From: Thermomonas sp.
Lineage (GTDB): Bacteria; Pseudomonadota; Gammaproteobacteria; Xanthomonadales; Xanthomonadaceae
DNA length: 64,000 bases
NCBI RefSeq assembly: GCF_029945965.1
Contig: NZ_JAQSDO010000003.1
Span: forward strand, 1 to 64,000
Reading direction: 5' to 3'
In this document: positions 12,444 to 37,339 of the stretch, one piece after another
How positions within the stretch are numbered: position 1 is the first letter of the stretch
Layout of the letters: each line of letters opens with the position of its first letter
Notes under the pieces: generated by a model
The model's input: only the letters and a program-made list of their open reading frames with translations
What the model was told of the DNA's origin: nothing
Database searches by the model: none
Made by a program: the position numbers and the translations under genes

Positions 12444-12462
12444 CGCCGGGGAGCATAAGAAA

Positions 12463-13092: not shown

Positions 13093-13141
13093 GCCATTGC
13101 CACCGGCCTGCGCCACGCGCAGGCCACAGGAGACACCACGA

Positions 13142-14805: not shown

Positions 14806-14839
14806 TCCTGCGGTAACCGCATGCGACATCGCAATATCG

Positions 14840-14872
14840 AAAACCCCGGTACTTCCGGGGTTTTTGGTTTTT
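14840..14872 (+). terminator. Intrinsic terminator of the alpha operon
   Basis: CCCCGG (14844-14849) pairs with CCGGGG (14855-14860) around TACTT, flanked by A-rich and T-rich sides so the stem extends, and followed by TTTTTGGTTTTT. Classic Rho-independent terminator just after rplQ. Confidence 0.92.
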
Positions 14873-14918
14873 GAGCGCGGTAGACGATAATCGAACGATT
14901 GCCTAATCAGGAGCACTC

Positions 14919-15437: not shown

Positions 15438-15497
15438 CGGTTGCGGTGGATGCGTGCGGACGCGATGATGCGACGCAACATCCCCCTGATTATCCCC

Positions 15498-16877
15498 ATG
15501 CCGAACGCGCCTGCCATCCTCACTCCCGACGCCGAAACCTGGGCGCCTGACAGCTGGCGCGCGCGGCCTGCGCTGCAACTTCCGACCTATCCGGATCCCG
15601 CAGCCCTTCAAGGTGTGCTGGAAGAACTACACGCGCTGCCGCCACTGGTGACGTCGTGGGAAATCCTCGCACTCAAGCAGCAACTGGCCGATGCACAGGA
15701 CGGCAAGCGCTTCCTGCTGCAAGGTGGTGACTGCGCGGAGACCTTCGCCGAGTGCAATTCACCGGTGATCTCCAATCGCCTGAAAGTGCTGCTGCAGATG
15801 AGCGTGGTGCTGGTACACGGGCTGAAGTTGCCGGTGGTTCGCGTCGGCCGCTTCGCAGGCCAGTACGCCAAGCCGCGTTCGGCGGACATGGAAACGATTG
15901 GCGATGTGACCTTGCCGAGCTATCGCGGCGACATGGTCAACGGACCAGCGTTCACCGCCGAGGCGCGAATCCCGGATCCGCGGCGCATGATCAAGGCGCA
16001 CGCACGTTCGGCGATGACCATGAACTTCGTGCGCTCGTTGATCGACGGCGGCTTCGCTGACCTGCACCACCCGGAGTATTGGGACTTGGGCTGGGTAGGA
16101 AAAGCCGAGTTGGCAGAGGAATACCAGCGCATGGTTGGCGCGATTGGCGATGCGGTGCGCTTCATGGAAACGCTGTCCGGCGCGCAATTGCACAACGTCA
16201 ATCGGGTCGATTTCTATACGTCGCACGAAGCGTTGCTGCTGCCGTACGAAGAAGCGCAGAGCCGGCAGGTGCCACGCCAGCACGGCTGGTTCAACCTCAG
16301 TACACACTACCCGTGGATCGGCATGCGCACCGCTGCGCTAGACGGTGCACACGTCGAATATTTCCGTGGTGTCCGCAATCCAATCGCGATCAAGATCGGG
16401 CCGTCAGTCAATCCGGACCAGCTGTTGCGGCTGATTGATGTGCTCAATCCCGATGACGAGCCCGGCCGCCTGGCTTTCATCCACCGGATGGGCGCTGTGC
16501 ATGTGGCCAACAAACTGCCGCCGTTGCTGGATGCGATCAAGCGCGATGGCCGCCGCGTCCTGTGGATCTGCGATCCGATGCACGGCAATACCGAAGCCAC
16601 CAGCAACGGCTACAAGACGCGTCGCTTCGACAATATCCGTGGCGAGCTTGAGCAGTCATTCGACCTGCATGCCGCTGCCGGAACGCGCCTGGGTGGCGTG
16701 CACCTGGAGCTGACCGGCGAGGACGTGACCGAATGCCTGGGCGGCGCGCGCGAATTGACCGAGCGCGACCTCGAACGCGCATATCGCTCCACCGTCGACC
16801 CGCGCCTGAACTATGAGCAGGCGCTGGAAATCGCGATGCTGATCGTGCGCAAACGCGGCCACATCGCCAGCGCATGA
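15498..16877 (+). CDS. 3-deoxy-7-phosphoheptulonate synthase, class II
   Basis: 459 aa. Catalyses condensation of phosphoenolpyruvate and erythrose 4-phosphate, the first step of the shikimate pathway. Class II (plant/mycobacterial type) motifs are clear: QGGDCAETF, RVGRFAGQYAKPRS and DPMHGNTEATSNGYKTR, with metal-binding Cys, His, Glu and Asp in expected places. The start is uncertain: 15498 gives MPNAPAILTPD; an in-frame ATG at 15441 would add 19 residues. No strong ribosome-binding site marks either. The stop overlaps the next gene (ATGA). Confidence 0.92.
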   Translation: MPNAPAILTPDAETWAPDSWRARPALQLPTYPDPAALQGVLEELHALPPLVTSWEILALKQQLADAQDGKRFLLQGGDCAETFAECNSPVISNRLKVLLQMSVVLVHGLKLPVVRVGRFAGQYAKPRSADMETIGDVTLPSYRGDMVNGPAFTAEARIPDPRRMIKAHARSAMTMNFVRSLIDGGFADLHHPEYWDLGWVGKAELAEEYQRMVGAIGDAVRFMETLSGAQLHNVNRVDFYTSHEALLLPYEEAQSRQVPRQHGWFNLSTHYPWIGMRTAALDGAHVEYFRGVRNPIAIKIGPSVNPDQLLRLIDVLNPDDEPGRLAFIHRMGAVHVANKLPPLLDAIKRDGRRVLWICDPMHGNTEATSNGYKTRRFDNIRGELEQSFDLHAAAGTRLGGVHLELTGEDVTECLGGARELTERDLERAYRSTVDPRLNYEQALEIAMLIVRKRGHIASA

Positions 16878-17881
16878 TCGGCGCCTTGCTGCGGACCAGC
16901 CTGACACTGGTGTTGCTCGCATGCGTCTGCACGGCGCAAGCGGGTACGAATCTGCAACTGCAGGAAAGTGGCGTCGATGTGCGTCTTCGTGGGATTTCAA
17001 CAGTCGATTCAAGCATCGCCTGGGCCAGTGGTCAGAAAGGCACGGTGCTGCGTACTGTCGATGGCGGCGCGCAGTGGCAGGCGGTGCATGTGGACGGCGC
17101 CGAGACACTGGATTTCCGCGACGTCGAGGCGTTCAGCGCCGAGGTCGCGGTGGTACTCAGCATCGGGCCAGGTGAAGCCTCGCGCGTGTACCGCACCGAA
17201 GATGGCGGCTGGTCGTGGACACTTGCGCTGCAAAACCAGGATCCGCGCGGTTTCTTCGACTGCATGGCATTCGAGGGCGAGCGTGGCTGGATGCTTGGCG
17301 ACCCGGTTGATGGGCGCTACCAGCTATTCGCCACCGACAACGGCGGTCGCGACTGGCGACAGCTGGCAAATGGCCCGCGAGCGGAAACGGACGAAGCGGC
17401 ATTCGCCGCCAGTGGCACCTGCATCGCGCGCCTGCATGGCGCATTGGCCGTTGCCAGTGGTGGCGCTAGGGCACGTGTTCACATTTTGCGCGATGGTCAG
17501 CAGGAATGGCAGACGGTCGACACCGGCATGGCACGGCGCAAGTCGGAAGCCGGCGTGTTCTCCGTCGCGCTGTTGGCCAAGGGCTGGTTTGCGGTTGGCG
17601 GTGACTATCGTGGCGAGTCCATGCCGGGCAATGCCGCCATCGGCACGGGCGAGACCGTCAAGCGGATCATCGCGCCACGTGGCTATCGCTCGGGTGCGGC
17701 TTGCGTGGGCGACACACTGCCATGCATTGCGGTCGGGCCGTCCGGCACCGACCTGTGGGACGGCAATCGCTGGCATGCGCTGGGCGATGTCGGATTCGAC
17801 GCCATCGACCTGCACGGCAATATTGGCTGGCTCAGTGGCGATGCGGGACGGATCGCCCGCATCGTCATCGACGATGACTGA
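16874..17881 (+). CDS. Exported Ycf48-like beta-propeller protein
   Basis: 335 aa with a Sec signal peptide (about residues 1-23, cut near AQAG). Repeats of the BNR/Ycf48 type are visible (GTVLRTVDGGAQWQ, SRVYRTEDGGWSWT, FATDNGGRDWR), predicting a seven-bladed propeller. Ycf48/HCF136 assists photosystem II assembly in phototrophs; in heterotrophs the role is unknown, often annotated oxidoreductase or photosystem-like. Its start overlaps the DAHP synthase stop, so the two are co-transcribed, but no functional link is clear. It ends directly against the convergent amidase gene. Confidence 0.75.
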   Translation: MIGALLRTSLTLVLLACVCTAQAGTNLQLQESGVDVRLRGISTVDSSIAWASGQKGTVLRTVDGGAQWQAVHVDGAETLDFRDVEAFSAEVAVVLSIGPGEASRVYRTEDGGWSWTLALQNQDPRGFFDCMAFEGERGWMLGDPVDGRYQLFATDNGGRDWRQLANGPRAETDEAAFAASGTCIARLHGALAVASGGARARVHILRDGQQEWQTVDTGMARRKSEAGVFSVALLAKGWFAVGGDYRGESMPGNAAIGTGETVKRIIAPRGYRSGAACVGDTLPCIAVGPSGTDLWDGNRWHALGDVGFDAIDLHGNIGWLSGDAGRIARIVIDDD

Positions 17882-19513
17882 TTACTTCTTCGGTTCGAAA
17901 CTGACCGTCGGCAGGAAGTGCGGCGCCTTGCGCGCCTTGGTCGCCTGCTCGAACGCATAGCCCAGCTCCACAAGTCGCGCTTCGCTCCAGGCTGGGCCCA
18001 TGAAGGTGATGCCCAATGGCAGGCCGTGGCTATCCCCCATCGGGATCGTGATACTGGGCGTACGTGCAACCGCAGCGGCGCCATAGCCGCTACCGGTGGA
18101 ATGGTCGGCATTGATAAGGTCAGTTGGCCACGCAGGCGACATCGACGGTGCCACCAGCGCGTCGAGGTTCTGCTTCTTGAGCGCGGCCATGATCCCGTCA
18201 GGGCCTGCCAGCTTGCGTGCCTTGTCACGCGCAGCGATGTAGGCGGCATCGGTCAACGGGCCCTTGGCATTTGCCTGTTCGAAGATCTCCTGACCGAAGT
18301 AGGGCATTTCGGTAGCGGCATTGGCCTTGTTGAATTCGATCAGGCCGGTAAGGGTCTTGATCGGTGCATCGCTGGCAACGAGATAGGCCTCGAGGTCGGC
18401 CTTGAACTCGTACAGCAGGACCTGGTATTCGGCGTCATCCCACTTGCCTGCGGTCGGAATCTCCGCATCGACAACGGTGGCGCCAGCGGCCTTGAGCGCG
18501 GCAATAGCGCGTTCCATCGAAGCGTCCACGTCGGGCTGGTAGCCCATCAGCTTGCGCACCACGCCGATCCGCGCGCCCTTGAGCGCATCCGCTTTGAGAT
18601 GAGTCGTGTAGTCGATGGCGTCGGGCGTCGTGCGTTCCGCCGAAGCGGCATCATTCGGGTCGGCTGCGGCAATCACGGTCAGCAGCGCCGCGGCATCGGC
18701 GACGTTGCGGGCCATCGGTCCGGCGGTGTCCTGGGAATGCGAAATCGGGATGATCCCGCTACGGCTGACCAGGCCCACGGTCGGCTTGATCCCGACCAGG
18801 CCCGCGACCGCAGATGGGCAGATGATGCTGCCGTCGGTTTCGGTGCCGATGCCGACGCTAGCCAGGTTGGCGGCGATCGCGGTACCGGTGCCGGCGCTTG
18901 AACCGCAGGGGTTGCGATCCAGCGCATAAGGGCTCTTGGTTTGCCCGCCGCGACCGCTCCAGCCAGAAGTTGAACGGGTTGAACGGAAATTGGCCCATTC
19001 ACTGAGGTTGGTCTTGCCCAGAATCACTGCGCCGGCTTCGCGCAGGCGCTGGACCAGGAAGGCATCGGTCTTCGGATGATGATTGGCGAGCGCCAGCGAA
19101 CCCGCCGAGTTCACCATCGGCATTGCATCGATATTATCCTTGAGCAGCACCGGAATGCCGTGCAGCGGTCCGCGCAATTTACCGGCCTTGCGCTCGGCAT
19201 CCAGCGCGTCGGCATCCTTCAATGCATCGGGATTGGTTTCGATCACAGCGTTGAGCATCGGCCCGGCATCGTCGATCGCCGCGATGCGATCCAGATAGGC
19301 TTGGGTGAGCGCGCGGCTGCTCAGCGAGCCATCCGCCATCTTCGCCTGCAGCGAGGCGACGTCGGCTTCTTCGAACGCGAAAGCCGGAGCTGCCGCGGTT
19401 GATGCGGGCTTTGATGCAGCATCCTGCGACGGCGCTTGCTGTGACGGAGACTGCGAAGTGGCTTGGCAGCCAGCGAGCAGCAGCAACGAAATGGTGAGCG
19501 ACAGGCGATGCAT
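17882..19513 (-). CDS. Amidase-signature lipoprotein
   Basis: 543 aa from the ATG at 19513 (MHRLSLTISLLLLAGCQAT), which gives a lipoprotein signal with lipobox LLAGC; a longer frame would bury this. The mature part is an amidase-signature enzyme with the Ser-cisSer-Lys triad: Lys in VLLKDNID, Ser pair in the CGSSAGTGTA and ETDGSIICPSA segments. Such enzymes hydrolyse amides; the substrate cannot be told. A Pro/Ala/Ser-rich linker of about 30 residues follows the lipid cysteine. The two convergent genes have no base between their stops. Confidence 0.9.
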   Translation of the reverse strand: MHRLSLTISLLLLAGCQATSQSPSQQAPSQDAASKPASTAAAPAFAFEEADVASLQAKMADGSLSSRALTQAYLDRIAAIDDAGPMLNAVIETNPDALKDADALDAERKAGKLRGPLHGIPVLLKDNIDAMPMVNSAGSLALANHHPKTDAFLVQRLREAGAVILGKTNLSEWANFRSTRSTSGWSGRGGQTKSPYALDRNPCGSSAGTGTAIAANLASVGIGTETDGSIICPSAVAGLVGIKPTVGLVSRSGIIPISHSQDTAGPMARNVADAAALLTVIAAADPNDAASAERTTPDAIDYTTHLKADALKGARIGVVRKLMGYQPDVDASMERAIAALKAAGATVVDAEIPTAGKWDDAEYQVLLYEFKADLEAYLVASDAPIKTLTGLIEFNKANAATEMPYFGQEIFEQANAKGPLTDAAYIAARDKARKLAGPDGIMAALKKQNLDALVAPSMSPAWPTDLINADHSTGSGYGAAAVARTPSITIPMGDSHGLPLGITFMGPAWSEARLVELGYAFEQATKARKAPHFLPTVSFEPKK

Positions 19514-25136: not shown

Positions 25137-25163
25137 TCGATAACGCCGCTGACGCGTTGCAAA

Positions 25164-25189
25164 GGGCTGGCCATGTGCCGGCCTTTTTT
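25164..25189 (+). terminator. Intrinsic terminator after mdh
   Basis: GGCTGGC (25165-25171) pairs with GCCGGCC (25177-25183, one G-U) around CATGT, then TTTTTT. Located 28 bases after the mdh stop. Confidence 0.9.
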
Positions 25190-25456
25190 GCGTTTGTGAT
25201 CAAGACAACCTGCTTCCGGTTGGGACCGGGCCGGATGTCCACGCAATGCATACTGCGTGCAGGGGAAGCCGCAGGCGGATGCCGAGGCTAGGTCACCCAT
25301 TCGGCTTAATACGCCAATGTCCAACGGTTTGCAGGATGCAACCGACGCCATGAACGAGGGGAATTCGATGGTGCAGTCGGGGCGAATCGCCGCGGCGCGT
25401 GACGTGCGCGACCTGCAGAGCGAGGCACGGAACCTGTTCCCGCGGCGGCGTCGGCC
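25190..25456 (+). other. Spacer between mdh terminator and truncated gene
   Basis: About 267 bases with no recognisable gene. A short in-frame stretch ending at 25460 (MSNGLQDATDAMNEGNSMVQ from 25317) overlaps the next start by four bases. I cannot relate it to a family; it could be a decayed small gene. Confidence 0.5.
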
Positions 25457-25756
25457 ATGATCCTTCGCCGCCTATCGCAATCACTCAAACAACAGAACTG
25501 GACGGCGATCTGGATCGAGTTCGTGCTGCTGGTGGTCGGTGTATTTCTCGGCATCCAGCTGGCGAACTGGAATGAAGAGCGCACCGAAGACATTCGGGCG
25601 CAGGCCTACCTGACGCGCATCCAGGACAATCTGCAAGCGGACGTGCAATTGATCGAGCGTCGCCAGATGTTCTGGGGCGAGGCCATCCACTATGGCAAGG
25701 GCGCGATCCATTACGCCGAACGGGTTCTACCCCGTTTCCACGGACTGTTGGGTTAA
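25457..25756 (+). pseudogene. N-terminal remnant of a small membrane protein, cut by the IS element
   Basis: About 88 codons remain before the IS end at 25722; the frame then runs 11 codons into the element and stops. The remnant begins MILRRLSQSLKQQNWTAIWI, has one membrane helix (FVLLVVGVFLGIQLANW) and a following charged region (NEERTEDIRAQAYLTRIQDN). This is the typical start of a family of single-helix proteins common in xanthomonads (about 250 aa), function unknown. The missing C-terminal part is not found on the other side of the IS, so a deletion accompanied the insertion. Confidence 0.7.
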
Positions 25757-26468
25757 GAGTCTAAAGGCCTGATCTTGTGCGTCCAGCCTGCGCTGCATAC
25801 GCGGGTTATGGAAGCGTTCGACGTAATCAAACACATCACTTCTTGCGTGGGCCAATGTCAGGTAGCGACGGCGATGCACGCGTTCGCGCTTGAGCACCCC
25901 GAAGAATCCCTCCATGGCTGCGTTGTCACCACAGTGGCCCACCGCACTCATGCTGCTGGTGATGTGGTGGTCCTTGAGAAACTTCTGGTAATCCGTACTG
26001 GTGAACTGCGTGCCGCGATCGGAGTGCAGGATCACGGGGTTGCGATCAGGGCGTTGCCAGCAGGCCATCATCACGGCCTTGAGCACCATGTGTCGGTCCT
26101 GCACGGGTGACATGGACCAGCCAATGATTTTGTTGGAGAACAGGTCCAACACCGCACACAAGTACAGCCAGCCTTCGCCGGTCTTGATGAAGGTGATGTC
26201 GACCACCCACTTGGTGTTCGGTTCCAATGCCTGGAAGTCGCGTTCCAGGTGATTACGCACATATGCCGGCCGCATGCCGGAGGGTTTGCGCCGCCACTGC
26301 CGCTTCTTTGGCACGCCGAACAGGCCCTTGCCGGCCATGAGACGTGCTACGCGGTTTGGGCAAGCGCTTTACCCAGTCGTGGAAGCCGCTGGGTGAGACC
26401 TTCAGGCAACGACACATGAGCCGGACCGGGTACTCGCTGCGGTGACGTCGGATCGCCTCGTACCTCAA
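25727..26468 (-). pseudogene. IS3-family transposase orfB, internally deleted and frameshifted
   Basis: The 5' piece reads from a TTG at 26468 (RYEAIRRHRSEYPVRLMCRC... FHDWVKR), the normal OrfB start. The 3' piece (to 25727) has the rve/DDE catalytic core: VVDITFIKT with the first Asp, LHSDRGTQFTS with the second, and GCL-type region ending with Glu in NAAMEGFFGVLKRE. Near 26350-26370 the sequence jumps from DWVKR directly to NRVARLMAGKG in another frame, dropping the HTH_21 segment (about 50 residues). The element cannot make intact transposase. Confidence 0.85.
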
Positions 26469-26752
26469 GACGATTCCTTGGCAAAGAACGCCGCCGCATC
26501 TCGCAAAAAATCCCGCTCCTTCTTCACCCTGACCAGCTCAAGCTTGAGTGCCAGCAACTCCTGGTCTCTGGCCGTGCCTGCGCCAGGGAATGCCTTCTGT
26601 TCACCCGCATCCAGTTCGCGTCGCCAACGATGCAACTGATTGGCACGTATCCCCACGTCCCGAGCAACCTGGGAAACGCTCGTCCCAGGTAGCCTGGTCA
26701 GCCCAACCGCTTCACGCTTGAACTCGCCGCTGTACTTCTTCCGCTGTTGCAT
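26465..26752 (-). CDS. IS3-family transposase orfA
   Basis: 95 aa, complete. Helix-turn-helix part (SVSQVARDVGIRANQLHRWRREL) followed by a leucine-zipper-like coiled coil (LLALKLELVRVKKERDFLRDA) ending in AAFFAKESS, typical of IS3 OrfA. It binds the element ends. In active copies OrfA and OrfB are joined by a -1 frameshift; here the partner orfB is broken. Confidence 0.88.
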   Translation of the reverse strand: MQQRKKYSGEFKREAVGLTRLPGTSVSQVARDVGIRANQLHRWRRELDAGEQKAFPGAGTARDQELLALKLELVRVKKERDFLRDAAAFFAKESS

Positions 26753-26814
26753 GACACTCCTCCTGCCCCATCATGGGGCTTAACTGAAGTGTCCGTGGTA
26801 TCGGGGTAGAACCC

Positions 26815-27651
26815 GCCGTGGCCTACATCGCCGCGGCGTTCGCGTTGCTGCAGGGCGTCGACATCGTGGATCAGCAGTTCGGCTGGCCGGAAACACTGCA
26901 GCGCGGCATTATGCTGGCGCTGGTCTTGGCCAATCAGCGCCGCTACCGCGAGAGTACCAAGGAGATGGCGCGGGCCCTTGCGCTGGATCCGAACGATGTC
27001 ACCACCAATTTCTGGAATGGCACCATCCTGGTCATAGTGGGCTATCGCAAACGGGGAGCGGCAGCCCTCGATCACGTGCTGCAACTCGATCCACTGTTAC
27101 CCAATGCCCTGGTCTGGCGAGCTCGCATCCACACTGCTGATGGTGATTTGGAAATCGCCGAGCGTCAGTTGCAACGGGCTGCCGAGGGCGGGCATAGCTT
27201 TGTTGGCCTGGGCCAATACAAGCTGGATCTTGCACGCGGCGACCATGCCGCTGCGGTCACGTAGCTCACCAAGGGGTTGCGTTATTTCGGCCAGGGTTTT
27301 TCGTCGTAGGCAGCCGGGATCTTTGCGCGTAGTTGTCTGGGCGATGCCGCCGCCAAGCGGGAGGCCATGCGCTTGATCAACGACTATCTGGCGACGAAGC
27401 CGAAGGTGCTGTCGGGCATCGTCCCTTACGTGCTGATCTGCTCGGGTGAGGTGGACCGTGGTTTCGCGTTGTCGCAATCGGCGCCGACCAACAACGATTC
27501 GCTGCTGCTGTCGGGCCTCTTCAGCGGAGAGCAACCTGAAGTGCTGCCCACACCGGCATTCACGAAATTCGTGCTGACCGACTACTGGGATGAATTAGGT
27601 CGGTCGAATTCCTGCCGCAAGAACGACGCAGGCGAATACGTCTGCAAGTAG
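26815..27651 (+). pseudogene. Decayed TPR regulator (winged-helix/TPR or adenylate-cyclase-like family)
   Basis: One frame runs from the IS border with AVAYIAAAFALLQGVDIVDQ then FGWPETLQRG, the membrane-helix region of a TPR regulator family common in xanthomonads, then jumps straight into TPR repeats (ANQRRYRESTKEMARALALD). The family has roughly 200-250 residues between these parts, so an internal deletion is likely. Two in-frame TAG stops at 27262 and 27307 split the TPR region; the frame continues to KNDAGEYVCK at 27651. The 5' part is lost at the IS. It is certainly non-functional as written. Confidence 0.8.
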
Positions 27652-27666
27652 GGGCGGCGAATCACC

Positions 27667-27759
27667 TCAGGCGCCCGGTCTGCAGTCGATGCAGCGAAGC
27701 GGTGGATGCGGGTCCATGCCCAGCGCTTTCAGAAGCAATTCCGTGCCCTTGCGCGTCAT
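27667..27759 (-). pseudogene. C-terminal fragment of a lipoamide-dehydrogenase-like gene
   Basis: Read on the minus strand, the last codons give LLLKALGMDPHPPLRCIDC then RPGA and a TGA stop. The intact gene at 37340-38809 ends [18 protein letters not shown] then GPGA. The nucleotide sequences align without gaps over about 90 bases with roughly three-quarters identity by hand count. Similarity fades upstream. Both copies point the same way and flank the kai cluster. Confidence 0.85.
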
Positions 27760-27928
27760 CACATGTAGCGCTCGGCACCAAGAGGATAGTCCCCATTGAG
27801 GACAGTTGGCGGTCAGCTCTATCAGCGATTCGATCCAGGCCCTTGCTTGTGATTACATGTTGCAAGTAGTGGTCCCCTAGCTTAGTTGATTATTTATGCC
27901 GCCTGTCAATACACAAACTGGTGGAAAA

Positions 27929-29671
27929 ATGAAAGCACTCCGCGTACCGCCGGGAAAATCCGTCAGCAAAGCACCCACCGGCATCATCGGACTGGACGAG
28001 ATTACTGGCGGAGGCTTGCCGCGTGATCGCACAACCCTACTGATGGGTGGACCGGGTTCTGGCAAGACTATCTTCTCGCTGCAGTTCCTCGTCCACGGTG
28101 CACTGAATTGCGGGGAGCCTGGCATCTTCGTTGCCTTCGAGGAAACCTCCGAGCGCATCATTGCCAATGCCGAGAGTTTTGGTTGGGATCTCGCCAAGCT
28201 CAGTCAGAAAAAACTGATTTTCATAGATGCCAAGCCCCAGGCGGACATGATCCAGTCCGGGAATTTTGATCTTGGCGGCTTGCTCGCCGCACTCGACGCC
28301 GCAGTCAAGGCGACAGGCGCAAAGCGCATCGTCTTCGATGCGCTCGACGTCCTGTTGGCGTTCTTGCCCGATCTGGCCGCGCGCAAACAGCAAACATATG
28401 AACTGCACGAATGGCTGTTGTCACATCAACTCACCGGCATCATCACTACGAAAACGGACAAGGAAGAAGCCACGTCGCTTAACAAGCAGCAGTTCGGTTT
28501 CATGCAGTTCATGGTCGATTGCGCGGTCATCCTTAACCACCATGTGGTTCTCGGCGTGTCGCAGCGCAATTTGCGCGTGCAGAAGTATCGGGGCTCCAGC
28601 TTTGACGAGAACGAAGCGCCATTCTTGATCGGGGCTAGCGGCCTTCAGGTAAGCGCAACGCGCACGGTAAATCGCCAAGTACGAAAGGTGACCAGCGAGC
28701 GCGTCACCAGCGGCATAGAGCGACTCGATACGATGCTGAGTGGCGGCTACTACCGAGGCGCCAGCGTCCTGATCACCGGCTTTCCCGGCACGGCCAAGAC
28801 GACGATTGCCGCTGCCTTCGCCGAGGCGGCCTGCGAACGGGGGGAGCACACTGCGTTTGTAAGCTTCGACTCGGATGCGAACGAGGTGATCCGCGACTTG
28901 GCCTCGGTCAACATCCGGCTCGAACGATTCGTCAAGAACGGATGCCTGCTCGTGGCCTCTGCCCGAAGCATTACCGGTAGCGCGGAAACTTACCTGGATC
29001 GCATCAAATCGCTGGCGATCGAGCACGCTGCGCGTTGCCTCGTGATCGATCCAATCTCCACCTGGTCGCAATCGGGCAACGACTTAAAAGTGCATAGCGT
29101 CTCGGAGCTGTTGACCGACTGGGCCAAGGCCCACGGCATCACGCTGGTCTGCACCAGCAATGTCGACGAGGCATCGCAAACCGAGCGAGGCCAGACGCTG
29201 CAGATTTTCACGCTCGCCGACACCTGGATCCAGCTCAGCTATCTGATGCAGGCCGGCGAGCGCAACCGTGGATTGTCCATCGTCAAGTCGCGCGGCACTG
29301 CGCATTCCAACCAGCTACGCGAGCTGATCTTGAGCGACGAAGGGGTGACTCTGGCGGACATCTATTCAGCCGGGGGCGAAGTGTTGATGGGAACGATGCG
29401 CTGGGAAAAGGAAAGCGCCGAGCGCGAAGCGCACGAAACAGCCAGCGTTTTGGCAACACTGAAACATGTCAACCTCGATGCGGAAGAAGCCGAACTGGAA
29501 GTGCGATTGAAGGCGATCCAGGTAGCGCTCGAGGCCAAGCGCGTCGAACAAGCGCTGTTGGCCACCACGATCCAGAGCCGCAAGGGTGATCTGTCACGCG
29601 GTCGTACCCGAATCAAGGAGTTGCGAGGCGCCGATGCGATCAAGCCCGAACGCAAGGCGAGGAAGCCATGA
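27929..29671 (+). CDS. kaiC: KaiC-like two-domain ATPase
   Basis: 580 aa from the ATG at 27929 (MKALRVPPGK), which has GGTGG at short spacing; an ATG at 27896 would add 11 residues. Two RecA-like domains. CI: GLDEITGGGLP, Walker A GGPGSGKT (40-47), catalytic Glu pair in FEETSE (71-72). CII: Walker A GFPGTAKT (284-291), but the Glu pair position reads FDSD (313-316). The place of the S431/T432 phosphosites of Synechococcus KaiC reads FT (427-428). A coiled-coil tail covers about 490-570. In cyanobacteria KaiC is the clock ATPase/kinase; in other bacteria such proteins serve stress or timing roles. No kaiA. kaiB overlaps its stop. Confidence 0.9.
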   Translation: MKALRVPPGKSVSKAPTGIIGLDEITGGGLPRDRTTLLMGGPGSGKTIFSLQFLVHGALNCGEPGIFVAFEETSERIIANAESFGWDLAKLSQKKLIFIDAKPQADMIQSGNFDLGGLLAALDAAVKATGAKRIVFDALDVLLAFLPDLAARKQQTYELHEWLLSHQLTGIITTKTDKEEATSLNKQQFGFMQFMVDCAVILNHHVVLGVSQRNLRVQKYRGSSFDENEAPFLIGASGLQVSATRTVNRQVRKVTSERVTSGIERLDTMLSGGYYRGASVLITGFPGTAKTTIAAAFAEAACERGEHTAFVSFDSDANEVIRDLASVNIRLERFVKNGCLLVASARSITGSAETYLDRIKSLAIEHAARCLVIDPISTWSQSGNDLKVHSVSELLTDWAKAHGITLVCTSNVDEASQTERGQTLQIFTLADTWIQLSYLMQAGERNRGLSIVKSRGTAHSNQLRELILSDEGVTLADIYSAGGEVLMGTMRWEKESAEREAHETASVLATLKHVNLDAEEAELEVRLKAIQVALEAKRVEQALLATTIQSRKGDLSRGRTRIKELRGADAIKPERKARKP

Positions 29672-29958
29672 GTCGTCTGGCCATCTACAAATTCAGGCTC
29701 TACGTGGCCGGAGAGGGACCAAATTCCGCGCAAGCACGTGCGAACTTGGCAGCGATTTGTCGAGAATATTTGCCTGATCGTCACCAGATCGAGATCATTG
29801 ACGTCATCAACGACCCCGAGCGAGCCTTGGCAGACCGCATATTCATGACCCCCACGCTGGTCAAACTGGCGCCACGCCCTGTCCAGTGCATTGTTGGAAC
29901 ACTCAGTCAGAAACAGATCGTCCTGCAGACCATGGGGATGGAATCCATAGACGTATGA
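29668..29958 (+). CDS. kaiB: KaiB-like protein
   Basis: 96 aa, thioredoxin-like fold. Family pattern visible: FRLYVAGEGPNSAQARANL, then EIIDVINDPERALADRIFMT, then PTLVKLAPRPVQCIVGTLS. KaiB binds the CI ring of KaiC after a fold switch in cyanobacteria. Its ATG overlaps the kaiC stop (ATGA), and its own stop overlaps the next gene, so all three are translationally coupled. The pairing with KaiC strengthens both calls. Confidence 0.9.
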   Translation: MSRLAIYKFRLYVAGEGPNSAQARANLAAICREYLPDRHQIEIIDVINDPERALADRIFMTPTLVKLAPRPVQCIVGTLSQKQIVLQTMGMESIDV

Positions 29959-32900
29959 ATCCAGTCAAACCCAACTCATTGCTGGATCACAGCGAGGAAA
30001 TCCACGCGTTGATCGAAACGCTGCACGCTACCGAGCAGCGTCTTGAAGAACTGACGGCGGGAGAAGTTGACACGGTTTCGAATCTCGCAGGCAGGACTGT
30101 GATGTTGCAGCATGCGCAGGAGCAACTGCGTCAAAACGAAGCGGTCAAACAGGCTGCCATCCTCAACGCATTACCGGCACATATCGCATTGCTTGATGCC
30201 CAGGGCGGCATTGTTTCGGTGAACGAGACATGGCGTCGGTTCGGGAGTGCGAATGACTTGCTGAGCCCGAAATTCGGAGTCGGCTTGAATTACGTCGAGA
30301 TATGCGACAACGCCGATGGAGACAATGCAGCCGAAGCCCAGGAAGCCGCTTTCGGTCTTCGTGCCGTACTGGCTGGCGCGAGCAATCATTTTTCGCTCGA
30401 GTATCCCTGTCACTCGCCCAATGAGCAGCGCTGGTTTCAGCTGACCGTGACACCGGTGGCCGATGGCATGTCACTCGGCGCCGTGGTCATGCACCTCGAC
30501 ATCACCGAAAAACATCATGCGGAGAAGCGACTCCGCGACCTGGATCAGAAATACCGCACGGTGTTCAAAGCCTCCAGCGATGCCATCATGATCCTGGACG
30601 AAAATGGCTTCTCCGAGATCAATGATGCGACCTTGCAGATGTTCGGCTGCAAGGCGAACGGCGAATTGCTGGGCAAACACCCCAGCGAGGTATCGCCGCC
30701 TACCCAGCCCGGTGGCGAAGATTCGGTAGAGCTGGCCAGTAGACACATGGCCAAGGTGTTCAGAGGGGGGAGCCTTCAGTTCGAGTGGATGTTCCGTCGA
30801 ATGAATGGCATCGATTTCCTGACCGACGTACTGCTGACCGCGATGGAGTTGGATGGCAAGCAGGTGGTGCAAGGCACCGTGCGCGACATTACCCGGCGCA
30901 AGGCAACCGAGGAGGAATTGACCTACAAGAGCACGATGTTGCAGACCCAGATCGAATCCTCGCTCGACGCAATACTGGTCGTTGACGAAACGTTACGCAT
31001 CATCTCCTACAACCGAAATTACGTTTCCCTGTGGCAGCTGCCTGAGAGTCTTGTGGCTACCGGCAACCACGAGCTGATACTGCAGACCATCCTTGACCAG
31101 ATCGAAGACCCCGTCGCATTCGCTGCCAGGGTCCACTATCTGTATGACCATCGCGACGAAAAGAGTCGCGAGGAAGTCCATTTGAAAGACGGTCGGCTGA
31201 TTGACCGTTACTCGGCCCCTGTCACCGGCGCAGATGGCAAATACTACGGCCGCGTCTGGTATTTTAGGGATATTACCGAAAGCGCGAAATCAGCGGCCGA
31301 TTTGCTCGAGTCGCGGCAAATGCTGCAGCTGGTGCTTGACACCATTCCATCGCGGGTATTCTGGAAAGATACTGAATTAAATTTTCTCGGCTGTAACAAA
31401 TCCTTTGCGATCGACGCGGGATTCAGGTCGGCCGAGGAACTTGTTGGCAGGAACGATCTGGAAATGCTCTCGCTAGACAGAGCCAAATCATATCGCTCAA
31501 ACGACCAGCTGGTTCTGGACGGCGGCAAGGCCATACTCGGCATAGAGGAATCGCAACCCACCTCGGACGGAAAAATCGGCTGGATACGGACCGACAAGGT
31601 CCCCATGACCAACGCCAAAGGAGTAATCACTGGAATATTGGGTACCTATGAGGACATCACCGAGCGAAAGGTGACGGAGGAACGCATCAAATACCTCAAT
31701 CGGGTCTTTGTGGTCCAGACCGGCATCAACTCACTCTTGTTGCGCGTACAGAACCGAAATGAGTTGTTCAGGGAAGCGTGCAACATCGCCGTCGATTCGG
31801 GCGGGTTCAAAATGGCCATGCTGGGCATCCTCGATCAGGACACGATGCGGATCATCCCGGTCGCAGCCGCAGGCAAGGATGAGGAGCTGTTGAGCTCCAT
31901 CCGCAACGTCCTGAATTCCGACGAGCTCGCCGCAAACACGATGTTCACGCGGGTTCTCCGTGAGAAAAAGACCATCGTGTCGAACGATTCGGCCAACGAC
32001 ACCCAGCTCATCTTTCAGAAAAACTACGCGGAGGCCGGGATTCGCTCGATGGCCATCTTGCCGTTGCTTGCATCGGGAAAGGCAATCGGCGCGCTTGCCC
32101 TGTATGCCAGTGAGATTGAATTCTTTCATGACCAGGAAATGGCGCTCCTGACCCAGCTGACCGACGACATCGTGTTCGCGATGGATCACATTGGACAGCA
32201 GGAGAAGCTCAACTACCTCGCCTACTACGATTCGCTGACTGGACTCGCTAACCGCAGCCTGTTTTTCGAGCGCGTGACGCAATACCTGCGCAGCGCGGAA
32301 AGCGGCGGGTACAAGCTCGCCATTGGCCTGATTGACCTTGAGCGTTTCAAAAGCATCAACGACAGCCTGGGCCGGTCGATGGGCGACGTGTTGCTGAAGC
32401 AAGTGGCGGCGTGGATGACGCAACGAGCGGGAGATGCCAGCCTGCTGGCGCATATCAATGCCGATCACTTCGCTGTCGTGCTGCCGGAGGTGAGCTCGGA
32501 TGGCGACTTGGCAAAACTGATGGGACACCTGCGGGATTCTTTCCAGGGCCATTCCTTCCGGCTCAATGAAATCGCTTACCGCATTGGCTTCAAGGCTGGC
32601 GTCGCGGTATTTCCGGATGACGGCACTGACGTCGACACCTTGTTCAAGAATGCCGAAGCAGCGCTGAAGTTGGCCAAGACGGGCGGCGACCGGTATCTGT
32701 TCTATACGCAGGAAATGACCCTTGCGGTGGCGGAGAAGCTCGCGCTTGAAAACGAACTTCGCCGTGCCATCGACAACGAGGAGTTCGTGCTTCATTACCA
32801 GCCCAAGGTAGATCTGGCGACTGGCATGGTCACCAGCGCCGAGGCGCTGATTCGCTGGAATCATCCGCGGACAGGGCTGGTACCGCCGGGTAAGTTCATT

Positions 32901-33509
32901 CCCATCCTGGAACAAACCGGGCTGATCCATGAAGTGGGTCAGTGGGCCCTGCGCCAGGCGATCGCGGACTACCTACGCTGGCGCCGCGCTGGTCTGCTGG
33001 GCCTGCGTATCGCGGTGAACGTGTCGCCGTTGCAGTTGCGAAACCAGGAGTTCATCGCCGAGGTCGCGCAGGTGATCGGTATCGAACCAGGTGCATCGGC
33101 CGGCTTGGAGCTGGAAATCACCGAAAACCTGATCATGGAGGACGTCGGGCAAAACATCGCCATCCTCAAGACGCTGCGCGCCATGGGCATCACGGTAGCC
33201 ATCGACGATTTCGGCACGGGTTACTCATCGCTCAGCCACCTGGCCAGATTGCCCGTGGACACGCTCAAGATCGATCGCTGCTTTGTCACCGACATGGCGA
33301 TTTCCTCGGAAGGCCTGGCGCTGGTATCCACGATCATTACCCTGGCACATTCCATGAAGCTCAAGGTCGTAGCCGAAGGTGTCGAAACCGAGGAGCAAAA
33401 GCGGCTACTGCAGTTGCTGGGCTGCGATGAAATGCAGGGGTTCCTGTTCAGCAAGGCAGTGCCGGCGGATGAGTTCGAAGCACGCTTCTTGATGCAACGA
33501 ACACACTGA
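29955..33509 (+). CDS. PAS/GAF sensor with degenerate GGDEF and intact EAL (c-di-GMP phosphodiesterase)
   Basis: 1184 aa, no membrane helix, cytoplasmic. Order: N-terminal coil (1-60), four PAS/PAC units (about 65-190, 195-315, 325-445, 455-575; each ends in a DIT motif), GAF (about 590-745), GGDEF-like (about 757-910), EAL (about 925-1175). The GGDEF signature reads NADHF (835-839), so cyclase activity is unlikely. The EAL part is intact: EALIRW (963-968), LEITEN, DDFGTGYSSL (from 1084), KVVAEGVET. It should hydrolyse c-di-GMP under sensory control, perhaps GTP-modulated by the dead GGDEF. ATG 29955 overlaps the kaiB stop. Convergent with the two-component operon downstream. AT-rich patches near 31250-31500 hint at transfer. 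Confidence 0.92.
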   Translation: MNPVKPNSLLDHSEEIHALIETLHATEQRLEELTAGEVDTVSNLAGRTVMLQHAQEQLRQNEAVKQAAILNALPAHIALLDAQGGIVSVNETWRRFGSANDLLSPKFGVGLNYVEICDNADGDNAAEAQEAAFGLRAVLAGASNHFSLEYPCHSPNEQRWFQLTVTPVADGMSLGAVVMHLDITEKHHAEKRLRDLDQKYRTVFKASSDAIMILDENGFSEINDATLQMFGCKANGELLGKHPSEVSPPTQPGGEDSVELASRHMAKVFRGGSLQFEWMFRRMNGIDFLTDVLLTAMELDGKQVVQGTVRDITRRKATEEELTYKSTMLQTQIESSLDAILVVDETLRIISYNRNYVSLWQLPESLVATGNHELILQTILDQIEDPVAFAARVHYLYDHRDEKSREEVHLKDGRLIDRYSAPVTGADGKYYGRVWYFRDITESAKSAADLLESRQMLQLVLDTIPSRVFWKDTELNFLGCNKSFAIDAGFRSAEELVGRNDLEMLSLDRAKSYRSNDQLVLDGGKAILGIEESQPTSDGKIGWIRTDKVPMTNAKGVITGILGTYEDITERKVTEERIKYLNRVFVVQTGINSLLLRVQNRNELFREACNIAVDSGGFKMAMLGILDQDTMRIIPVAAAGKDEELLSSIRNVLNSDELAANTMFTRVLREKKTIVSNDSANDTQLIFQKNYAEAGIRSMAILPLLASGKAIGALALYASEIEFFHDQEMALLTQLTDDIVFAMDHIGQQEKLNYLAYYDSLTGLANRSLFFERVTQYLRSAESGGYKLAIGLIDLERFKSINDSLGRSMGDVLLKQVAAWMTQRAGDASLLAHINADHFAVVLPEVSSDGDLAKLMGHLRDSFQGHSFRLNEIAYRIGFKAGVAVFPDDGTDVDTLFKNAEAALKLAKTGGDRYLFYTQEMTLAVAEKLALENELRRAIDNEEFVLHYQPKVDLATGMVTSAEALIRWNHPRTGLVPPGKFIPILEQTGLIHEVGQWALRQAIADYLRWRRAGLLGLRIAVNVSPLQLRNQEFIAEVAQVIGIEPGASAGLELEITENLIMEDVGQNIAILKTLRAMGITVAIDDFGTGYSSLSHLARLPVDTLKIDRCFVTDMAISSEGLALVSTIITLAHSMKLKVVAEGVETEEQKRLLQLLGCDEMQGFLFSKAVPADEFEARFLMQRTH

Positions 33510-33603
33510 TTCGAAATGAGCACAGCAGTCGGTTGGCTGGAAATGCCTTCAATGCGGCATGGTGTTGGCGATGGTGCCGGGCTTTTCCTCTCCCTATCCG
33601 CTG

Positions 33604-34002
33604 CTAGATCCTGGCCCGCAGGCCTTGGTTGATCGATTCCACGAGCGCCTCTGCGTTCCATGGTTTGGCAAGGAAATCATGCAGCCCCGCTTCGTGGCGG
33701 GCACGATCGACGGCGGCGGTCTCGGCATGGCCGGACAGCATGATCTTGACGACCGACGGGAACCGCTTGTGCGCCTCAATCAGGAATTCATCACCCTTCA
33801 TGCCGGGCATCAGCCAGTCCGACACGATCACCAGCAAGGTGTGGCCTTCTTCGGCCAGCTCGTCCAGCAGCTCCAGCGCTTCTTCGGCGCTTTCGGCCAC
33901 ATCGATCAAGAAATCATTGCCGAACGCGCGCCGAAGCTGGTCCTTCAACGCCGTCAGCACGATGATTTCGTCATCCACGCACAACAAAATTCCCTTGTTC
34001 AT
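33604..34002 (-). CDS. Single-domain response regulator (receiver)
   Basis: 132 aa, receiver only. Acidic pair D10-D11, phosphoacceptor D62 in VIVSDWLMPGMKG, switch Ser S90 in IMLSGH, and Lys K113 in LAKPW are all present, so it should be phosphorylated. The ATG shares one base with the kinase stop (TAATG), so it is the last gene of a three-gene operon. No output domain: it may act by protein contact, as CheY-like regulators do. Receiver type resembles those fused to HD-GYP or GGDEF (GDEFL motif after D62). Confidence 0.93.
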   Translation of the reverse strand: MNKGILLCVDDEIIVLTALKDQLRRAFGNDFLIDVAESAEEALELLDELAEEGHTLLVIVSDWLMPGMKGDEFLIEAHKRFPSVVKIMLSGHAETAAVDRARHEAGLHDFLAKPWNAEALVESINQGLRARI

Positions 34003-36164
34003 TATCCGGCTCCGTCGATCGGTAGATGCACGGTGAAGGTACTGCCACGCCCGACTTCACTTTCCACGGTAATCCTGCCCCTATGCTTTTCCACGATCTT
34101 GCGGACGATGTCCAGCCCCAAACCAGTGCCTTCGCCCGTGGCCTTGGTGGTGAAGAAAGGTTCGAATATCCGCTTCTGCACTTCAGGCGATATGCCGCAA
34201 CCGGTGTCGCTGATCGACACCAGTGCGTCGCCGTTTTCCTGGCACAGGCTGATAGTCAGCGTGCCCTTGTGGTCCATCGCCTGCAGCGCGTTGTGAATCA
34301 GGTTGGTCCAGACCTGGTTGATCTCGTCGGGCAGGCAGCGCACCAGCGGGATCTCCTGGAATTGGCGGACAAGCTCGGTGCCGTGCTTGATCTGGTTCTG
34401 GTAAATGGTCAACACCGTCTCCAGTCCTTCGCTCAGGTTCGATTCCGTCCACACCTGAACGCCGCCGAAGCGTGAGAAGGACTTCAGCGCGAAGATGATC
34501 TTGGCAACCCGGTCCACCGCCGTGTTGATGTTCCCGGCGTTGGTGGAAATCGTGGAAATCCCGTAGGCGGTTTCCAGGATGCGGTCTGCGGCCGGATGCC
34601 GCAGCAGTGGCAGCATCTGTTTGAGGTCGGTGTGGGATTGCAATTGCACCAGCAGGTCGGCGTGATGCCGCGCGTGGTCCAGGCCCAGGGCCTCGAGTGC
34701 CGTGGTCACCTCACGCACGACGGCGCGTTCCTCGCGCGTACTGAGCATCTTCTTGGGCTTGTTCGCGCGTTCCACCAAGGCGCTGAAGCGCTCGCGGTCG
34801 GTTTTATCGAGATCGTCAAGCAAGGCCGGCAGGCCGAGCAGGGCGCTGTCGAGCGCATCGGAAATATTGTGGCCGCTGGATTTGATCGCGCCGATCGGGG
34901 TGTTGATCTCGTGCGCCACGCCTGCAATCAATTGGCCAAGCGCGGCCATTTTTTCCGAATGCACCAGATGCGCTTCGGCCTGGTGCAGGTCTTCCAGCGC
35001 CTTGGCCGCCTGTTTGCGTGCCTTTTCGGCGACAGCGAAGGCATCGGCGTTGGCCAGCGCAATCGCAGCGAATGCGGCGGCCGATCGGAACACTTCCAGC
35101 TCGCGTTCGTGATAGGCGTCAGCCTGGTGGCTTTGCACGGTCACCACGCCTATGCGGCGGCCGTTGGCGATCAGCGGACGGAATACCGCTGACAGGATCG
35201 GCGTGCTCTCGTTGAAGCAGCTGGCGCTGGGTGCATCGGCAAGTTGCGTTTCGTTGAACAGGGTCAGTTCGCGGTCCTCGCGGAACGTCAGTACCGCCAG
35301 CGAGGTCGGGTGGTCGAGTGGAAACGAGCTGGGTTCGTCGATCAAGCCGTCCTCCACATAAAACAGGAAGTCGAGCGCATCGCCCGCCGGCGAGAGCAAG
35401 GCGACGCCGAACACGTCCACCGGCAGCAGGGCGGAGAAGCGTTTCTCCAGCGTCCGGCAGATGGCCTCGGTGTCCAGGCTTCCGGTCAGGTCCTTGCCGA
35501 TGTTGCCTACCAGCCGCAGCGTTTCGGCCGACACCGCAAGATCGTCCATCGCACGCTTGAGTGCTGCGTTGGCCTGCCAGCGCGCCGCCGTCGCCGCCAC
35601 GTGGCTGGCCACGAAATTGAGCAGGTCCAGGTCGGCCTGCGTGTAGGTGATGTCGGCGCTATAACTTTGCACGATGATCAATCCGTACACTTGGTCCTGC
35701 GCGATCAGCGGTGCGCCCATCCAGCTGTTGAAGTCGACGACGCCGCGAGCGGCCAGGATCTCGCCCTGGTCGACCAGCGACTGGAACAGGTCGTTATCCA
35801 TCAGCCACGGGAGGCGTGTGCGGATCACCAGCGAGGAAATGCCCTCGCCATAGGGGAAGGTCTCCTTGACCTGGCTCAGGTCCTCGTCCACCAGGTATTC
35901 CTGGCGGATCAGCCCATGCTCGGCATCGTAGGTGGCGATGATGAAGTTCTTGGCATACATCAGCCGGCCGACGATTTCGTGTAGTTGGGCGTAGTGTTCG
36001 TGCTCCGGACTGTCTGCGGTCGACAGCGAAGCGATCTCGTAAAGGGCGCGCTGCAGGGACTCGCCCTGGCGGCGTTCGGTCACTTCACGTTCGAGCTCGA
36101 CCACGCGCTGCGTCAGCTGCGCGACGCTCGCCGGTTGCCGTGTGCTGGCTTCGGACTCAGTCAA
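34002..36164 (-). CDS. GAF-domain sensor histidine kinase
   Basis: 720 aa from a TTG start at 36164, seven bases after GGAG, overlapping the end of the cyclase gene by eight bases. No ATG occurs before the first GAF domain, so a non-ATG start is needed; frames further upstream are antisense-like and not conserved. Coil (10-40), GAF1 (about 40-200), GAF2 (about 225-375), coil, dimerisation domain with His418 in IAGVAHEINTPIG, long helical linker, and HATPase (about 590-715: NLIHNALQAMD, DTGCGI, FFTTKATGEGTGLGL). Cytoplasmic. Probable donor to the two flanking receivers. Confidence 0.9.
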   Translation of the reverse strand: MTESEASTRQPASVAQLTQRVVELEREVTERRQGESLQRALYEIASLSTADSPEHEHYAQLHEIVGRLMYAKNFIIATYDAEHGLIRQEYLVDEDLSQVKETFPYGEGISSLVIRTRLPWLMDNDLFQSLVDQGEILAARGVVDFNSWMGAPLIAQDQVYGLIIVQSYSADITYTQADLDLLNFVASHVAATAARWQANAALKRAMDDLAVSAETLRLVGNIGKDLTGSLDTEAICRTLEKRFSALLPVDVFGVALLSPAGDALDFLFYVEDGLIDEPSSFPLDHPTSLAVLTFREDRELTLFNETQLADAPSASCFNESTPILSAVFRPLIANGRRIGVVTVQSHQADAYHERELEVFRSAAAFAAIALANADAFAVAEKARKQAAKALEDLHQAEAHLVHSEKMAALGQLIAGVAHEINTPIGAIKSSGHNISDALDSALLGLPALLDDLDKTDRERFSALVERANKPKKMLSTREERAVVREVTTALEALGLDHARHHADLLVQLQSHTDLKQMLPLLRHPAADRILETAYGISTISTNAGNINTAVDRVAKIIFALKSFSRFGGVQVWTESNLSEGLETVLTIYQNQIKHGTELVRQFQEIPLVRCLPDEINQVWTNLIHNALQAMDHKGTLTISLCQENGDALVSISDTGCGISPEVQKRIFEPFFTTKATGEGTGLGLDIVRKIVEKHRGRITVESEVGRGSTFTVHLPIDGAG

Positions 36165-37158
36165 TTTCAATCTCCACGCGATTGCGGCCGCTGTTCTTGG
36201 CGCGATACAGGGCGGCATCGGCGCGGCCGAGCAGGCTGGCCACGGTATCGCCGTCCCGGTAGGAGGCCACTCCAAAACTCGCAGTAATCGGGTCCACCCC
36301 GGCGAAGGCATGGCCTTCGATGGCAGCACGCAGGTTTTCCGCCGCGGCGAGCCCGCCGTCGCGCGTGCTGTGCCGGCAGAGCACCACGAACTCCTCGCCA
36401 CCCAGGCGGCCCACGGCGTCGGAATCACGGGTGCTACTGCGCAGGATGTCAGCAACGCCGGCCAGCACGATGTCACCGGCACCGTGGCCGTAAGTGTCGT
36501 TGACCCGCTTGAAGTGATCGATGTCGACCATGATGATGGCAAGATCGACCGCATAGCGGCGGCTACGCGCCAGTTCCTCTTCCATCTCTTCGTCGAGCTT
36601 GCGGCGATTGAACAGGCCGGTCAGTTTGTCGGTGACCGAGAGTATTTCCAACTGCTGGTTCTTTTCCACCAGCTCCTGGGTGCGCGCCGCCACCAGTGAC
36701 TCCAAATCAGCGTTCATCTGGCGCAATTTTTCGTTTTGTTTGATCAGGTCGCGTTCCTGCTGGTAAGCGCGGATTGCCGCGCGCACAGTCAGCACGATGT
36801 CCTCGTTGAGGAAGGGCTTTTCCAGGAAACGATACAGATTGGCTTCGTTGATCGCACGCTTGACGCCGCTCACGTCGCTCTGTCCGGTCAGCAGGATCTT
36901 CACCGTGTTCGGCGAGCGTTCGTGCAGGCGCACCAGCAGTTCGTCGCCACGCAACCCTGGCATCATGAAGTCGGAGATGACCAGACTCAGTTCGCGCCCC
37001 TGCGCGCGAAGTTCAGCATCGATCTCTAGGGCCTCCTCACCGCTTTCGGCGAACTCGACCTGCAAGTGCTGGCCGAAATTCGTCGCCATCATCGTACGAA
37101 GTGCACTGAGTACAGTCGAATCGTCGTCTACGCACAGAATGATGTCGCAGTTACCCAT
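36157..37158 (-). CDS. Receiver-GGDEF response regulator (diguanylate cyclase)
   Basis: 333 aa. Receiver at 1-120 with D11-D12, phosphoacceptor D63 (VISDFMMPGLRG), T91 and K114; coiled-coil linker 130-170 (QNEKLRQMNADLESLVAARTQ); GGDEF domain 170-333 with intact GGEEF (253-257). An inhibitory-site RxxD (RDSD, 244-247) lies five residues before it. Should make c-di-GMP from GTP when phosphorylated, with product inhibition. PleD/WspR-like layout. First gene of the minus-strand operon with the kinase and lone receiver; opposes the EAL protein of the kai operon. Confidence 0.95.
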   Translation of the reverse strand: MGNCDIILCVDDDSTVLSALRTMMATNFGQHLQVEFAESGEEALEIDAELRAQGRELSLVISDFMMPGLRGDELLVRLHERSPNTVKILLTGQSDVSGVKRAINEANLYRFLEKPFLNEDIVLTVRAAIRAYQQERDLIKQNEKLRQMNADLESLVAARTQELVEKNQQLEILSVTDKLTGLFNRRKLDEEMEEELARSRRYAVDLAIIMVDIDHFKRVNDTYGHGAGDIVLAGVADILRSSTRDSDAVGRLGGEEFVVLCRHSTRDGGLAAAENLRAAIEGHAFAGVDPITASFGVASYRDGDTVASLLGRADAALYRAKNSGRNRVEIEID

Positions 37159-37339
37159 GCGCCGTTCGCCTCAGGGTTCCGTTGCATTCAGTAGAACAGA
37201 ATGCGCCGCCAGGGGCAGTCGGCACGTGAACGAGAAGGCCGAGTTGTGACCGGATTCGACAATTGCAAGCTTGAGCTAGCCCACGTGCGTCGATCCGGGC
37301 AGACGCTCGGTCACTCATGTCGTACTGGCGCCTACTGGC

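Follow-up and report, generated by a model that had tools for sequence, protein, structure and literature searches.

SasA of Synechococcus reads the state of KaiC through an N-terminal, KaiB-like (thioredoxin) domain. This SasA–KaiC output is mentioned in section 17 of PMC3164672 (2011), which also reports that, outside cyanobacteria, almost all clustered kaiC–kaiB pairs have a histidine kinase gene or a GGDEF/EAL gene immediately downstream. The same paper describes the RtaNt domain, which it likens to SasA and KaiB; the domain belongs to kinases from kaiC clusters that lack kaiB. The KaiBC system of Rhodobacter sphaeroides has no KaiA; its KaiC carries a C-terminal coiled-coil tail, and KaiC phosphorylation tracks the ATP:ADP ratio (PMC10076222). 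Here, we analyze a Kai locus of the gammaproteobacterium Thermomonas sp. (assembly GCF_029945965.1), where kaiC and kaiB are followed by a gene for a predicted phosphodiesterase of cyclic dimeric guanosine monophosphate (c-di-GMP). The locus lies in a stretch of 64,000 nucleotides (nt), positions 1 to 64,000 of contig NZ_JAQSDO010000003.1, which we call the window. We find that the protein encoded behind kaiB begins with a short module whose link to kaiB is nearly exclusive, and that the enzymes attached to this module are exchanged.

The kaiC–kaiB–EAL operon

Three genes on the forward strand are chained by two ATGA overlaps: kaiC (27929–29671, with a further in-frame ATG at 27896), kaiB (29668–29958; 96 amino acids), and the gene for an output protein of 1184 amino acids (29955–33509). 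The original prediction had read the operon in this way, and gene coordinates and Pfam agree with it. Pfam recognizes KaiC in two stretches (E = 2e-93), KaiB (E = 2.7e-22), and EAL (E = 9e-74), as well as PAS_4 (four stretches), GAF_2, GGDEF, HATPase_c, and two Response_reg matches. Judged by these domains, the genes under study are whole protein families and not chance open reading frames (ORFs).

Behind its N-terminal module, the output protein carries PAS domains, a GAF domain, a GGDEF domain (32220–32687), and an EAL domain (32751–33455). The GGDEF site reads NADHF, in keeping with the prediction that this domain is degenerate. Alignment with MorA (MucR is among the next matches) places EAL, DDFGTG, and the neighboring catalytic motifs in the window protein; by these motifs, the domain is an intact phosphodiesterase predicted to hydrolyze c-di-GMP. 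We rejected the idea that it is the only phosphodiesterase of the cell, because the genome has 17 EAL matches, the window's being one.

The layout, which had been thought undescribed, is not new, because PMC3164672 reports kaiC–kaiB followed by a GGDEF/EAL gene. As in the operons of that paper, the GGDEF/EAL gene of the window lies immediately 3′ of the kai genes. We surveyed 60 kaiB loci from 57 genomes. KaiB was matched in 32 class genomes and 37 phylum genomes, of which 21 and 34, respectively, were included, together with two genomes of the order; our own genome aside, these were mainly the stronger matches. At a distance of up to 300 nt from a kai gene, 11 of the 60 loci have an EAL gene, and 23 have an EAL or GGDEF gene. 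The kaiCB–EAL unit recurs across many genera of Beta- and Gammaproteobacteria. As a layout, the operon is ordinary; it is informative as a member of this family, in which the module is the likely coupling part.

Distribution of the N-terminal module

The module spans approximately residues 9 to 72 of the output protein (29979–30170, forward strand) and was delimited by two alignments (A1 and A3), an AlphaFold model, and genome searches. It comprises ~65 residues: a helix, a GEVDA/T motif (GEVDT at residues 36 to 40 in the window), and a predicted hairpin. The model places a helix at residues 9 to 34, the hairpin at 40 to 50, and a second helix at 51 to 72, which is followed by PAS. At an E value of 0.1, no family in Pfam or NCBIfam is shared by even two of 13 module rows, and Pfam finds no KaiB domain in the whole output protein. 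A Foldseek search with a 200-residue model gave PAS/LOV/PYP-type or larger sensors among the 50 of 925 matches listed, none of them informative on the module. A literature text search for GEVDA, which motifs printed inside figures would escape, retrieved no related description.

The module is found almost exclusively behind kaiB. The pattern [GS][EA][VI]DA[LIV] occurs 12 times in 6439 stop-to-stop ORFs from the surveyed loci and the window; 11 of these lie close to the start of a gene that directly follows kaiB. We then searched genomes with A1, a 13-row module alignment that includes loci L137, L146, and L151 and excludes L133, whose motif lies at residue 256. Among 369 class genomes, the search returned 14 places in 13 genomes, 13 of them beside a kaiB match; among 398 phylum genomes, it returned 10 places in 10 genomes, all beside kaiB. 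These draws partly overlap (the window's own place is in both), and together they give 23 distinct places, 22 of which are directly behind kaiB. Ten places lie outside A1, nine of them beside kaiB.

For a second scan, we took one peptide from the border of module and PAS and another from within the PAS domain; this yielded 49 named loci, mostly from Betaproteobacteria and methanotrophs. Where the start of the gene was covered, 34 of 36 module-bearing genes directly follow kaiB, compared with 0 of 12 module-less genes (Fisher P = 1.3e-9, from related genomes that are not independent); this table omits the gene of L215, its start being cut off by a contig end. When all ORFs are examined, 57 of 61 module matches (including the window and one locus present twice, L116 = L188) start 18 to 164 nt past the kaiB frame. 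The other four are in L117, where an in-frame stop interrupts the kaiB match, in L208 and L218, and in the second gene of the L195 tandem. In L208 (9677–10100) and L218 (8226–8486), no kaiB was found, and a stretch that reads like a KaiC N-terminal remnant directly precedes the module gene, an apparent case of kai gene decay in one assembly. The tandem in L195 (9707–17888) consists of two module genes behind kaiCB, one for a 1888-residue PAS-kinase-receiver-Hpt-EAL protein and the next for a GGDEF/EAL protein.

A verrucomicrobial locus (L217, Chthoniobacterales; 12398–18329) holds a kaiC–kaiB–module-kinase–receiver cluster, with a weak module match (E = 7e-6) and a module-less matched gene just upstream of kaiC. 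This suggests that the module is not confined to Pseudomonadota. A plasmid search with a kinase-type module returned one record, Pararhizobium qamdonense p3, with kaiC–kaiB–kaiB–response regulator.

The enzymes behind the module vary. We built a tree of 85 KaiC frames longer than 430 residues with both domains, flagging long branches. The module label needs two changes on this tree (shuffled mean, 28.4), or three if the L099 cluster, which has a weak module match and kaiB 2.3 kb away, is counted as module-bearing. The output switches between EAL and kinase at least four times over the 37 module-bearing rows with a readable output (27 EAL and 10 kinase; eight unread rows aside). Among unclear outputs, Pfam identified L112 and L146 as kinases and gave no output domain for L115, L148, and L099. 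The 30-row clade that contains the window includes kinase outputs (L190 and L212) and, in L195, the kinase-EAL fusion with a second module-EAL gene.

Median identity to the window over 31 EAL relatives is 63% for the module, 58% for the first PAS domain, and 71% for EAL; the middle PAS block is alignable in only 9 of them. All 31 retain the EAL and DDF motifs; at the GGDEF site, 6 have GGDEF and 16 have xADHF. A C-terminal receiver is present on 8 of 33 module-EAL proteins (L182, L185, L186, L194, L196, L203, L205, and L206). In two loci of the window's order (L156 and L157), a PAS-GGDEF-EAL gene is followed by kaiC and kaiB with no module detected, apparently a separate joining of Kai and EAL genes.

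KaiC of the EAL clade

The window KaiC has two ATPase domains and a C-terminal tail of ~85 residues. Among solved chains, the closest is that of R. sphaeroides KaiC (8dba; E = 3.3e-96), with which the tail aligns up to residue 544. Both P-loops are present (GGPGSGKT and GFPGTAKT). Residues 314–315 (28868–28873) are Asp-Ser and align with Glu-Glu in the R. sphaeroides chain, which we take to be the CII catalytic pair. Residues 427–428 (29207–29212) are Phe-Thr and stand opposite Ser-Ser, which is taken as S413/S414 (PMC10076222) on the assumption of a two-residue numbering shift. A CII catalytic Glu pair with two phosphosites, as expected of an autokinase, is thus absent from the window KaiC.

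In the window's clade, the CI Glu pair is intact in all 30 KaiC rows. In CII, 24 rows have DS, 3 have DT, and 1 has DA, and the pair is deleted in the remaining 2, both from one organism. At the phosphosites, the window has FT; the other rows have ST, SA, SK, or SS. In the sister clade, five kinase-linked rows keep both Glu-Glu and Ser-Ser. On this evidence, KaiC of the window's clade probably has a weak CII kinase or none. An Asp-Ser, Asp-Thr, or Asp-Ala pair in CII beside an intact CI also argues against a phosphorylation clock. In Methylotuvimicrobium buryatense 5G (L188; 8141–9484), the KaiC beside the module-EAL gene is an unbroken 448-residue frame in which the aligned P-loop and Glu region of CII are missing, apparently through a natural deletion.

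The opposed receiver, kinase, and cyclase genes

Convergent with the kai operon, three genes on the reverse strand encode a single-domain receiver (33604–34002), a GAF-GAF-histidine kinase (34002–36164), and a receiver-GGDEF diguanylate cyclase with a GGEEF motif (36157–37158). Coordinates and Pfam bear out their predicted overlaps: the kinase start, a TTG chosen in our analysis, overlaps the stop of the cyclase gene, and kinase and single receiver have one base in common. An intact phosphodiesterase on one side and a cyclase on the other were also read correctly.

We nevertheless judge all three genes to be neighbors outside the Kai system, to which the original prediction had assigned them. 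Co-occurrence of the two operons in relatives had been proposed as a check; the kaiCB–EAL part recurs, but the opposed triple stands beside none of 33 module-EAL genes (32 loci; 25 of the genes have at least 3650 nt downstream). At an E value of 1e-45, the kinase has matches in 5 of 184 other class genomes. Its core (approximately residues 380 to 717) is matched in G153 (52%), G129 (48 and 41%), G273 (47, 47, and 44%), and G218 (36%); the match in G131 is the ATPase part alone. The class-genome search found no KaiB match in G153, G129, or G273; G218 has kaiB, on another contig than the kinase match. Of the six loci in the first three genomes, three have a gene closely homologous to the single receiver of the window next to the kinase, and two have a homologue of the cyclase receiver fused to a kinase-type ATPase. 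Because these kinase-receiver sets sit in genomes without a KaiB match and the cyclase receiver is fused otherwise, the opposed operon resembles a Kai-independent phosphorelay that has an exchangeable output of its own. Less stringent searches of a draw of relatives (E = 1e-30) gave kinase matches in 66 of 99 genomes, partial only apart from the kinase itself, and a plasmid search (E = 1e-60) gave two Leptospira records at 47% coverage.

Other signaling genes do occur near module-EAL genes. A kinase lies at most 3.65 kb downstream in five loci (L182, L185, L188, L205, and L209), accompanied by a receiver-HD gene in L182 and L205. Within the same distance, a second GGDEF/EAL gene is found in 12 of 32 loci, a count for which no background rate was computed; the one in L195 is itself a module gene.

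Genomic setting

Both operons lie inside a 12.2-kb accessory stretch (25137–37339) between mdh and a pyridine-nucleotide-disulphide oxidoreductase gene. Matches to these two genes are 135 nt apart in the congener G009. In 14 congener stretches of ~20 kb (two overlapping ones for G009, read separately), we found no kaiC, kaiB, EAL protein, receiver, or kinase at an E value of 1e-15; the cyclase counterpart in three of them is only a GGDEF match (37 to 39%). The congener order DAHP synthase–amidase–typA–PPIase–aminotransferase–mdh...prpB is kept as far as the stretches reach (L242 ends before DAHP synthase). Of the 99 genomes in the draw of relatives, 3 have a KaiB match, our own among them; 24 other members of the genus and 34 other members of the family have none. 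Guanine-plus-cytosine (GC) content is 54 to 59% in the kai genes, 59 to 62% in the opposed genes, and 62 to 65% in five neighboring genes; third-position GC separates them less (63 to 73%, 75 to 80%, and 73 to 85%, respectively). On balance, the Kai-output operon was probably acquired, and the locus is probably variable.

A transposase with an rve domain lies upstream of kaiC (25727–26338), and the frame at 26465–26752 looks like its IS3-type partner. Between 25457 and 27651, the transposase frames stand beside interrupted TPR frames and a short ORF resembling a membrane protein, apparently remnants of genes. A promoter scan returned one site, on the reverse strand within a gene, where shuffles gave 3.3.

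Discussion

With moderate confidence, we favor the explanation that the locus is an acquired, translationally coupled KaiC–KaiB–output operon, in which a nucleotide switch formed by the CI ATPase and KaiB acts via the module on the phosphodiesterase. ATP would be hydrolyzed in the CI ring of KaiC, and KaiB would dock according to nucleotide state. This state would be relayed to the output protein through its GEVDA module, which would open or close the EAL domain, so that c-di-GMP is lowered or spared. The PAS/GAF domains would feed in further signals. Gating of the EAL enzyme by KaiBC is plausible. The opposed operon would be a separate three-gene phosphorelay that lies alongside in a variable locus, and the two could meet via a shared c-di-GMP pool. 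Gene order, intact CI and EAL motifs, the altered CII pair, and a module that stays with kaiB through changes of enzyme are what this explanation builds on; from them we infer that the proteins dock physically, that control would run from Kai to output, and that CII would run no phosphorylation timer. A broader and more tentative proposal is that the GEVDA module may be a dedicated Kai-coupling domain unrelated to the KaiB-like domain of SasA, with exchangeable kinase and phosphodiesterase outputs, and that KaiC of the EAL clade may be a CI-ATPase switch without CII kinase chemistry and no clock.

Several points weigh against this explanation. Genes behind kaiB were the source of the module model, and no more than 15 to 16 candidates were scored per genome, which limits its reach elsewhere; G235 has a module match without kaiB, the weakest of the class-genome search (E = 1.7e-5) and partial. 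Linkage by itself would keep neighboring genes together, and the four output changes barely exceed the two to three module changes. The module is not needed by KaiBC in general, because 39 of the 60 surveyed kaiB loci lack a detectable one (21 have it). Confidence of the structural model is moderate within the module (block means, 64 to 79). As to KaiC, most relatives retain Ser at the first phosphosite, and Asp at the CII site is still a carboxylate that could retain some function.

Among the alternatives, it is unlikely that the locus is a stress or energy module resembling the Legionella pneumophila system, with KaiC and KaiB acting but not tightly controlling the third protein, and with the N-terminal module as a mere PAS cap inherited with the operon. 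In L. pneumophila, KaiB and KaiC reportedly did not interact, and the operon is said to aid stress resistance; its third gene, lpp1114, may be a GGDEF/EAL gene. The helix by which the module is predicted to run into PAS would suit a cap. Against it, genes with the same PAS domain and without the module do not stand behind kaiB in any of the 12 cases, and the module is retained where the output differs. Quite improbable is an integrated Kai–c-di-GMP–phosphorelay circuit, with the kai-EAL and convergent operons as opposing arms. The two share one accessory stretch, and the C-terminal receivers, downstream kinases (two with receiver-HD), and second c-di-GMP genes of other loci, the last lacking a background rate, are in its favor; the missing triple, the kinase-receiver sets in genomes without a KaiB match, and the modest GC gap between the operons led us to reject the opposed operon as a part of the Kai system.

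The least probable explanation is a true KaiBC hourglass timer, with KaiC phosphorylated as in R. sphaeroides and c-di-GMP hydrolysis as the output. The nearest solved KaiC, the C-terminal tail, and Thr at the second phosphosite are consistent with it. A phosphorylation clock is disfavored by Asp-Ser at the CII pair and by Phe at the first phosphosite, both set against the R. sphaeroides chain, and the Methylotuvimicrobium KaiC lacks the aligned CII P-loop region altogether. The CII motif of the window likewise speaks against a circadian KaiABC clock.

If the CI-ATPase switch acting through the module is correct, it offers a possible direct link from the energy state of the cell to c-di-GMP. 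The new element is the short N-terminal module that marks Kai outputs whatever their enzyme type, and it provides both a concrete candidate binding site and a sequence tag for finding such outputs. This module may be the plug by which Kai proteins drive different outputs, and the altered CII site would be a sequence mark that helps to distinguish Kai switches from clocks.

The locus resembles the clusters of PMC3164672 in having a signaling gene right behind kaiC–kaiB, PAS/GGDEF/EAL being among the architectures of that paper; its section 17 and Figure 4 legend, however, give no N-terminal module common to kinase and EAL outputs. The kaiC–kaiB–PAS/histidine kinase operon of Rhodopseudomonas palustris also has three genes including a PAS signaling gene, but there the output is a kinase (PMC4794148). 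The R. sphaeroides KaiBC system (PMC10076222) has the KaiC that is closest in sequence among solved ones and likewise has KaiB. Its KaiC differs in having Glu-Glu in place of the window's Asp-Ser and Ser-Ser in place of Phe-Thr, and the third gene of the window encodes an EAL protein. As in SasA, the N-terminal part of the signaling protein would read the state of KaiC; in place of a KaiB-like domain, the window module is predicted to form a helix-hairpin-helix that runs into PAS.

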